Part shown: piece by piece, positions 2,365 through 52,242 of the stretch
How the letters are laid out: each line of letters opens with the position of its first letter
Numbering within the stretch: the stretch's first letter is position 1
Assembly (NCBI RefSeq): GCF_002159535.1
Contig: NZ_NFIU01000009.1
Coordinates: forward strand, 1-64,000
DNA length: 64,000 nt
Reading direction: 5' to 3'
DNA from: Olsenella sp. An290
Lineage (GTDB): Bacteria > Actinomycetota > Coriobacteriia > Coriobacteriales > Atopobiaceae
Program-made: the position numbers and the translations under genes
Notes under the pieces: model-generated
The model's input: only the letters and a program-made list of their open reading frames with translations
Told to the model about the DNA's origin: nothing
The model's database searches: none

Positions 2365-2601
2365 GGGTACGTACACGCCTGCCGGGTACGTACACTTGCG
2401 GCGGGTACGTACACGCCTGCCGGTTGCGTACACTTTCGCGGGTTACGTACACGTTTGCCGGTTGCGTACACTTTCGCGGGTTACGTACACGACCACACAG
2501 GCCATCTACCTGCATGGATGTAAAACCATCAGACAGGCAAGGCCTCTTTTCGTGTACGTAACCACCTGAAATGTACGTAACCGGCGCAAGTGTACGTAAC
2601 C
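2365..2601 (+). repeat. 19-bp-period repeat element, copy 1 (7 + core + 3)
   Basis: Seven direct units of the form GGKTRCGTACAC start at 2365, 2384, 2403, 2422, 2441, 2460 and 2479, exactly 19 bp apart, each followed by a 7-base variable spacer. Then comes a 61-bp core (2491-2551) containing TCTACC, ATG, CAAGG and a terminal CTTTT run. Three inverted units GTGTACGTAACC follow at 2552, 2571 (first base A) and 2590, again 19 bp apart. The spacers alternate (GCCTGCC, TTGCGGC, GCCTGCC, TTTCGCG, GTTTGCC, TTTCGCG), suggesting growth in two-unit steps. The two arms could fold back on each other. The element is intergenic, directly after bioY. Apparent reading frames through it only translate the repeat. 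Confidence 0.95.
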
Positions 2602-50309: not shown

Positions 50310-50406
50310 TTCCGGTTGCGGCCCGGCCGCGGTCCCACCTGGGGCGATGCCGCGCGCGGAGGCTCCCTCGCCCGCCGCGCGCCTTTCCCCGCCGGCCCTT
50401 CTCGCC

Positions 50407-50605
50407 GGGTACGTACATTCCCGGCGGTTACGTACACTTTTGGCGGTTACGTACACGCTTTCCGGTTACGTACACTCCGGACGGTTACGTACACTCTTGC
50501 TCAGGCCATCTACCAGGGAAAATGCAAAACCACTCTCCGCAAGGCTCTCTTTTTTGTGTACGTAACCGGAAGAAGTGTACGTACCCGGAAAGCGTGTACG
50601 TACCC
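50407..50605 (+). repeat. 19-bp-period repeat element, copy 2 (5 + core + 3)
   Basis: Five direct units (GGGTACGTACAT, then GGTTACGTACAC four times) start at 50407, 50426, 50445, 50464 and 50483, exactly 19 bp apart. The 61-bp core runs 50495-50555 and shares TCTACC, ATG, CAAGG and a terminal T-run with copy 1. Three inverted units start at 50556, 50575 and 50594. From the core outward the long-arm spacers are TCCGGAC, GCTTTCC, TTTTGGC, TCCCGGC. The short arm repeats GCTTTCC at the facing position, which would extend the pairing of the arms. Confidence 0.95.
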
Positions 50606-50714
50606 GGCGAGCTTGAGCGCGCCCTGCCCAACAATCTGGCGAGAGGAACCTCGGCTCAGCAGGTGCCCCGCCGTCTGGAGCGTATTGCGCGTGGTCATCC
50701 GCCCCGCCGCCCCC

Positions 50715-50894
50715 GGTTACGTACACTCCCGCCGGTTACGTACACTTTGGACGGTTTCGTACACGAAAAAGTCCCCTTGGATGGGTCAGCTCCAGCATTT
50801 CCGCAGGTAGAAGACTTGGGCTGGTGTGTACGTAACCCCCGGGAGTGTACGTAACCGGAAAGAGTGTGCGTAACCGCCAAAAGTGTACGTAACC
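50715..50894 (-). repeat. 19-bp-period repeat element, copy 3, reversed (4 + core + 3)
   Basis: On the plus strand three GGTTACGTACAC-type units start at 50715, 50734 and 50753, followed by the 61-bp core (50765-50825) and four GTGTACGTAACC-type units at 50826, 50845, 50864 and 50883. Read on the minus strand this gives the same plan as copies 1 and 2: a longer arm, core, T-run and three inverted units. Long-arm spacers from the core outward are TCCCGGG, TCTTTCC, TTTTGGC, the same order as in copy 2. Copies 2 and 3 face each other with their three-unit arms across 109 bases (50606-50714) in which I see no gene. The stretch 50895-51098 is also gene-free. Confidence 0.95.
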
Positions 50895-51098
50895 GGAGCG
50901 GGCGGCGCGTCGGGCGAGAAGAACCGCCGGGCTGCGTCCCCCGCCCCCGCACGCACCAGCCGCCGCGCGCCACGAGCGCCCCCCGCCCATCTCCTTCTCA
51001 GAACGTGCATCTCTCTGTCGTACAGTGTGGGTGCCGCAACGTGAAGGGGCGCGGGGTCGGCTGCCCGCGCGCCCGCAGCCACGCAGGAGGATGATCGC

Positions 51099-51884: not shown

Positions 51885-52242
51885 ATGCCCACGCCGACCG
51901 CTCGCACCCGCAACAGAGCCCTCAGCAAACGCGCCTCCCGAGGCCCTGCCGCACGGCACCAAGCCCCGGCTCCGGCCAACACAAAACCAAAAAGTACGCG
52001 CCCCCTCAATCAAAGGAGAACGGTGTTTGTTCCCCATAATGTCCTTTGGTTCCCGATTTATGCACCTACATCTACCTTTTGGGAACATCTCAAACTTCTC
52101 AAAACCATTTGTATGCCTGAAGGTTAAGATACGAGACACGCCAAATTGTGGGAGGGGCCACGCTTCTGTACGGGGCTGGCCGCCGCCCACGGCTGAAAAG
52201 TAGGGCGGGGCCAACGGCTTCGAGTTGTGAGGGAGTACCACC
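51885..52242. other. gene-free, AT-richer spacer before the pilus island
   Basis: No gene is supported. The stretch 52000-52150 is much richer in A and T than the flanks and must hold the pilus promoter, but no clear -35/-10 pair is visible. GAGGGAG at the right end is the ribosome site of the tip gene. Confidence 0.5.

Follow-up and report, generated by a model that had tools for sequence, protein, structure and literature searches.

A tail-to-tail pair of inverted unit arrays after purD in Olsenella sp. An290: members of a dispersed, probably mobile intergenic element family accompanied by a gene for a PD-(D/E)XK-like protein

Introduction

Dispersed inverted elements that have a dedicated gene are best known together with HUH (RAYT) transposases. 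Among the features which Bertels and Rainey (2011; PMC3116915) set out for the REPIN-RAYT system are a pair of inverted, highly conserved short sequences whose distance is perfectly constant and whose spacer is less conserved, an extragenic location, a genome-specific sequence and a dedicated gene next to which the same repeats stand. The account of the Drosophila foldback transposon Galileo in PMC3573991 includes inverted ends made of internal direct repeats, which expand and shrink, and a small middle. For the BOX elements of pneumococcus, the properties given in PMC3049150 include dispersed, modular organisation and a variable number of tandem modules in a conserved frame. Correia elements and other bacterial MITEs are characterised in PMC10969869, among other things, as short elements with inverted ends, often intergenic and some having a protein-binding core.

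Our study deals with two arrays of inverted units lying after purD, within a stretch of 64,000 nucleotides (the window) of the genome of Olsenella sp. An290 (G000; 2.15 Mb in 42 contigs). A literature search covering titles and the beginnings of abstracts has yielded no description of these elements, and none of the six Coriobacteria/Actinobacteria words looked for in PMC3733652 was present there.

The pair after purD and its family in the genome

Copy 2 consists of a five-unit arm on the forward strand (50407-50494; unit GGTTACGTACAC with a period of 19, unit starts at 50407, 50426, 50445, 50464 and 50483), a core of 61 bp (50495-50555, forward strand) having the core motif TCTACCAGGGAAAATGCAA at 50509-50527, and an inverted three-unit arm (50556-50605, reverse strand) whose last unit ends at 50605. 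Copy 3 begins with an arm of three forward units (50715-50764), followed by a 61-bp core on the reverse strand (50765-50825, core motif at 50793-50811) and an arm of four reverse units (50826-50894), the last of which ends at 50894. These coordinates agree with those given in an earlier note on this DNA, and its description of the three-unit arms as facing each other 109 bp apart (50606-50714) is also confirmed; with the core of copy 2 forward and that of copy 3 reverse, the two form a tail-to-tail pair. A further family member, copy 1, was located elsewhere in the window (2365-2601, forward strand) with seven forward units, a 61-bp core (2491-2551) and three reverse units. With up to two mismatches, GGTTACGTACAC has 27 matches in the window, 25 of them inside the three arrays, against an expectation of 1.49 (sd 1.34, largest 5) from 100 dinucleotide shuffles of the window. 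After the NUDIX gene, GTTCCC/GGGAAC repeats around TCTACC at 52029-52092 were seen by eye, possibly another small element.

A two-unit pattern search of all contigs, which elements with single-unit arms could have escaped, located 18 elements in 16 places of the genome. They have a common architecture of n x (12-bp unit + 7-bp spacer), a 61-bp core and inverted units, with two to seven units in each arm, and the earlier assignment of both copies to one element family is borne out by them. The gap of the best forward/inverted unit pair is exactly 61 bp in 18 of 18 elements. Five positions are invariant among the 135 units, and the 99 spacers are low in information and weakly constrained. The pattern common to the cores is roughly TCTACCTGC..AAATG.AAAACGCC....CGAGAAGGACC.TTTTTC; positions outside this motif are near saturation, the average pair differing at 27.3 of 61 positions, and the spread in this genome is therefore not recent. 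Conserved units in combination with a fixed core geometry are what protein-binding sites would leave. The elements are extragenic in the contexts read, and the gene contexts, judged by eye, are mostly convergent or tandem where readable, several being unreadable. Other families of this genome resemble this one in the core motif and have different arms, namely AAAAAGTACCCAACA (three loci), GATTAACGCACAAAATCTGACA and AACTGCAACA (L077, L079, L080, L078, L081).

Architecture in related genomes

The architecture recurs within the genus (Atopobiaceae, Thermophilibacter-like) with species-specific units. None of 59 relatives yielded a TACGTAC array with a period of 19. In 19 of the 31 genus genomes, GTGTACRYAMCC is present in 9-127 copies (reversed control 0-2); the count is 0-6 in the remaining 12, some at control level, and several of these 12 carry other unit forms. 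The block TTCTTCTCGNCANNNNNTCTACCTGCG (up to two mismatches) was detected in 24 of 31 genus genomes as compared to 5 of 364 others of the order. At those genus loci read that have discernible arms it sits between the two arms, and it has no match in G000.

The geometry of the elements was found to be quantised. Ten of 102 distinct inverted pairs were set aside (nine with gaps of 28-41 bp and one of 131 bp), and the inner gaps of the other 92 elements in the fetched loci measure 60-61 (21 elements), 68-70 (14) or 78-81 bp (57) with none between, counts which are inflated by shared descent, as 18 gaps of 61 match the 18 elements of G000. Unit periods in the fetched loci are 19 (114), 21-22 (89), 31-32 (9) or other values (10), and the steps of gap and period are near one helical turn. 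Across the family there are one to eight units per arm, and the element length is about 105-300 bp.

For the purD-NUDIX interval, the earlier note had proposed a comparison with close relatives, in which the pair could be present, cleanly absent or single. Among the named relatives at the NUDIX locus are species of Thermophilibacter and Olsenella, besides other Atopobiaceae, with a NUDIX protein 79-88% identical in protein comparison. Both genes were held by 18 of 29 genus loci, and at these 18 no inverted pair of GTGTAC-type units (up to one mismatch) was found between them, but these relatives are too distant for a base-exact empty site. Other inverted-repeat elements lie between purD and NUDIX in some of them (L195, L198). 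Many relatives also have, between the same two genes, a conserved HTH-coiled-coil protein of 160-169 aa ending in PWWKRxxFATKLLG (L182, L178, L184, L190, L195, L201). This protein was rejected as the array binder here because it is absent from G000 and matched in only 16 of 31 genus genomes.

A gene bracketed by the elements

The elements are associated with a gene. A 315-aa PD-(D/E)XK-like protein is encoded with an element on both sides in eight of the eight species where it was found; in G000 the gene is placed on contig C9, at about 4.6-5.5 kb, between two elements. Among 402 reading frames near the scanned element loci, this family stands at the largest number of loci (seven, in different genomes), followed by frame families at six, five and four loci, which partly represent one locus common to related species. 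An element lies on each side of the gene within about 300 bp at seven of seven loci, and an eighth locus (G027), fetched for its two core blocks, is bracketed likewise. The carriers (G000, G004, G011, G019, G021, G022, G025 and G027) were found via element loci. Since the neighbouring frames share no similarity between the seven loci, the cassette stands at different places in seven species. At these seven loci the two flanking elements are alike, forming direct repeats in four and inverted repeats in three; in G004 they are 96% identical over 159 bp in direct orientation.

All seven frames are open, and their proteins are 55-62% identical to the G000 protein, with S-P-M-E180, D225, E236, H243, D250 and R255 invariant in the seven members. 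Comparison of the G011 and G022 genes, which form a close pair, gave an uncorrected pN of 0.028 versus a pS of 0.137. The protein matches PF18741 (REase MTES_1575) below the cut-off (E 0.0079, 16.7 vs 38.2 bits), and six of the seven members match weakly. The PF18741 family resembles DUF559/Vsr. No NCBIfam, PADLOC or meaningful PDB match was obtained for the protein, and its N-terminal part has no match in the libraries searched. Further homologues are L249, L253 and, in another Atopobiaceae genome, L237, where an inverted repeat and a core-like motif were seen by eye beside the gene. A single-sequence structure model of this distant homologue was unusable (pLDDT 36.5).

Solo elements mostly share the unit of their genome's cassette. 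The G004 cassette unit GAGGTTATGCG is carried by three of three solo elements found by core block, and a fourth element (L289) has another unit form; for the G019 cassette unit TGCATCGTGTACAC, solo agreement is one of one. Some of the five solos in G027 agree with the cassette unit and L431 deviates, and in G025 the cassette unit form is a minority among the solos. There are also pairs of elements separated by about 1 kb that do not enclose the gene (G001, L419). A Collinsella homologue, 25% identical, adjoins an inverted repeat with 52-nt arms; this repeat has ten BLAST places in a 900-kb record, some of which are probably arms of one copy, and one further copy in the 200 kb read.

Probable mobility of the family

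In G029, 18 cores of 79-81 bp were obtained, several pairs of which are 88-94% identical at different loci; the best local flank scores between six such loci are 29-46, values without a shuffled control. These near-identical cores, along with the bracketed gene at different places in seven species, support the mobility of the family, which the earlier note had already considered. The family is probably mobile, and we infer that, if it is not so now, it was until recently. Direct repeats at the element ends of G000, G025 and G029 occur at chance level, giving no sign of target-site duplication, and complementary flanks at element ends are likewise not seen beyond chance. Of 29 parsed genomes, 13 have an rpmA-obgE spacer of 158-208 bp; judged by eye, the spacer holds family elements in G000 and G014 and different inverted-repeat families in others. 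Also by eye, the rpmA-obgE spacers of relatives (L339, L353, L335) were found to contain quite different arrays, with CTTGACGAAACGGGGCTCGTCTCAGC-like units of which three are forward and three or four inverted, and with a GACTCATTTCCGGAAATGAGTC-like palindrome in about nine copies.

Viral contigs gave no match for the unit array, another unit form or the core block; a third unit form occurs on three viral contigs, all without the core motif, and the strict core motif has 19 viral matches, estimated to be near chance. The elements were found in no plasmids and no phages. The bracketed gene was found in no phages, and its only plasmid match is one distant Collinsella record.

The reading that we favour, at a probability of roughly 0.6, takes copies 2 and 3 as separate members of a dispersed intergenic element family, with the bracketed PD-(D/E)XK-like gene as its trans partner and a mobility resembling that of REPIN-RAYT or foldback elements. 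The same arrays could be envisaged as host regulatory or chromosome-organising sites, where a host protein binds the units, the bracketed gene is autoregulated, and site and protein have co-evolved without mobility. The exact core length in 18 of 18 elements, the quantised gaps and periods, the strong conservation of the units and their matching, for the larger part, to the cassettes are all compatible with such sites. We nevertheless consider this account improbable, as the bracketed gene stands among unrelated neighbours in seven species, near-identical cores occupy different places in G029, and the rpmA-obgE spacer is short in 13 of 29 genomes; the mostly convergent or tandem gene contexts, read by eye where readable, also argue against it.

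Two members or one composite

The earlier note had derived copies 2 and 3 from one ancestor, spacers included, by the order of their long-arm spacers. Read from the core outward, these are TCCGGAC/TCCCGGG (4/7), GCTTTCC/TCTTTCC (6/7) and TTTTGGC/TTTTGGC (7/7). The matching order thus holds, with 17/21 letters, and is the best among the 120 element pairs that could be compared (mean 10.3, sd 2.3); for random triplets of spacers the probability of 17/21 is P = 0.011, in a comparison which had been picked by the earlier reader. The cores, however, have 27 differences in 61 positions, which places them near the middle of 153 pairs (mean of all pairs 27.3), and because they differ like an average pair no recent duplication is visible. 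Descent from one copy is consequently doubtful, with the spacers speaking for it and the cores against it.

The inverted flanks CTTCTCGCC (50398-50406) and GGCGAGAAG (50913-50921), which had suggested a composite with its own ends, are present, and they are parts of a 13-mer, GGCGAGAAGRACC. It stands as GGCGAGAAGGGCC at 50394-50406 (reverse strand, one mismatch) and as GGCGAGAAGAACC at 50913-50925 (forward strand, exact), and another copy is located between copies 2 and 3 at 50638-50650 (forward strand, one mismatch). In the genome, GGCGAGAAGRACC has 113 + 97 = 210 exact copies (reversed-pattern control 0). Allowing one mismatch in 12 letters, it lies within 120 bp of the arms in 15 of 18 elements and has the same inverted sense in 20 of 24 listings, a count in which two sites lying between paired elements appear twice. 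Three single elements (L036, L037 and the second element of L035) have the motif on both sides. The window sites of GGCGAGAAGRACC are 2934, 10021, 23755, 32837 and 50913. Many of the sites read are intergenic and others lie in coding sequence (e.g., L087), and the motif sometimes occurs as hairpin-forming inverted pairs (L083, L082, L088).

A composite, in which both copies and the flanks CTTCTCGCC/GGCGAGAAG move as one, or an inverted duplication of one copy, would be in keeping with the closest spacer order of 120 pairs and with the inverted flank motifs. It has little to recommend it otherwise, since the cores are no closer than average, the flank motif, present in 210 copies, is also seen near single elements, and the two members of the second close pair (C1, locus L031) have the reverse arrangement. 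As the motif accompanies single elements too and one copy of it lies between the pair, the claim of one composite with its own ends is not supported, and copies 2 and 3 look like two separate family members. The neighbouring pair would most likely represent two insertions into one tolerant spacer, and a later exchange between arms is possible.

Transposases and hairpins

The elements could also be genuine REPINs whose movement depends on a Y1 (RAYT-type) transposase acting on single-strand hairpins. Their short inverted units, constant distance, species specificity and intergenic position where read are in line with this, and two Y1_Tnp genes are present in G000. We hold it to be most unlikely, because no TACGTAC or full core motif was found within 1.5 kb of either G000 Y1 gene, repeats of another kind lie beside both, and neither the G000 core hairpin nor the inner stem in G000 and G029 has compensatory changes. 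The inner stem of G025 gave a weak compensatory signal (first 6 bases P 0.004; first 10 bases P 0.051). A Y1 (RAYT) partner was rejected for G000, as its Y1 genes are not linked to the units. By eye, these Y1_Tnp genes (L146, L147) were seen to have an HTH-like C-terminal tail and GGGGACAGG-type flanking repeats.

A structured RNA with the core as hairpin loop and the arms as stem is barely credible, for although TGCR-NAAA-YGCA resembles a stem-loop and a sigma70-like promoter at rpoB reads into a core-like motif in several genera (by eye), there is no covariation (no core pair above shuffles in the 18 copies of G000 and in 18 distinct loose 19-mers), no Rfam family reaches its gathering score (only tRNAs in the window, only sub-threshold matches at seven loci), and the arms are unequal in length with spacers that are not complementary as a rule. 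The apparent G..C/A..T covariation of an RNA or ssDNA core hairpin was imposed by the strict search pattern, and this candidate was rejected. Upstream of rpoB, the sigma70-like promoter is antisense to rpoB and directed into TYTACCTGCRNAAAYGCAA (L104, L120, L131, L134-L136; by eye).

Growth of the arms and proposed mechanism

Exact spacer 7-mers recur inside one arm in 8 of 106 pairs versus 50 of 4615 between elements. In comparisons made on inverted sequence, opposite arms of the same element have 7 exact matches among 130 pairs, versus 22 among 2210 between elements (permutation P = 0.0025). The mean spacer similarity is hardly higher for arms of the same element (3.47/7) than for other pairs (3.32/7), and only the exact matches stand out between arms. 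Several G029 arms repeat spacers letter for letter. This recurrence within and between the arms of one element suggests that arms may grow by tandem duplication of a unit plus its spacer, and that they may exchange sequence across the core with the opposite arm.

Coming back to the element family with a trans partner, its units would bind a protein, and the association of the gene with the elements points to a possible activity of its product on them. A protein acting in trans, for which the PD-(D/E)XK-like cassette product is the likeliest candidate, would bind the units on one helix face, and once bound it may join the arms and, as the element spreads, cut the DNA or protect it. The elements of the window would then be solo, non-autonomous copies.

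A more specific proposal, which we put forward tentatively and rather doubt, is a nuclease-based counterpart of REPIN-RAYT, in which a PD-(D/E)XK (Vsr/MTES-like) protein, encoded between two array elements, recognises inverted unit arrays that are helically phased and with whose sequence it co-evolves in each species, and in which it promotes or permits the spreading of solo arrays through intergenic DNA without target-site duplication. If true, this would be a second way to make and keep populations of dispersed inverted elements, beside that of HUH (RAYT), and it would account for a conspicuous share of the genus's intergenic DNA. As the distant Collinsella homologue also adjoins a large inverted repeat, the principle may run through the order Coriobacteriales. 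The 18 elements of G000, tens of units in many relatives and eight cassettes with largely matched units make up a ready test set.

Comparison with known systems

Like Correia elements and other MITEs, the elements are short and have terminal inverted repeats; unlike them, they have no target-site duplication, and no known IS parent was found. As regards the autonomous parent of a DDE-type MITE, the product of the element-flanked gene in eight species is PD-(D/E)XK-like and is not a known transposase. With BOX elements they share a dispersed, modular build with variable tandem modules in a conserved frame. BOX, however, repeats its middle module, whereas here the inverted ends are repeated and the middle is fixed in length. 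In common with Galileo, the inverted ends are built from direct repeats varying in number (1-8 per arm) around a small middle. Galileo is eukaryotic and has a P-type transposase, whereas the present elements are bacterial and about 105-300 bp long; Galileo is also much longer.

The cassette protein is alike to the MTES_1575/Vsr-like PD-(D/E)XK family (PF18741) in the acidic and His/Arg pattern of its C-terminal half, but it stays below the Pfam cut-off (16.7 vs 38.2 bits), and it is a putative nuclease. In relation to REPIN-RAYT, the family differs in that the bracketed gene is PD-(D/E)XK-like and not a Y1 HUH transposase, the arms are tandem arrays of 1-8 units, and hairpin compensation is absent in G000 and G029 and weak in G025. 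As no Y1 link was found in G000 and no hairpin compensation in G000 or G029, we do not count it as a member of the REPINs. It resembles them in its inverted units at a fixed distance (gap of 61 in 18 of 18), extragenic where read, in its genome-specific units, and in the dedicated gene with the same repeats beside it. The family probably works in the manner of a REPIN-RAYT or foldback system.
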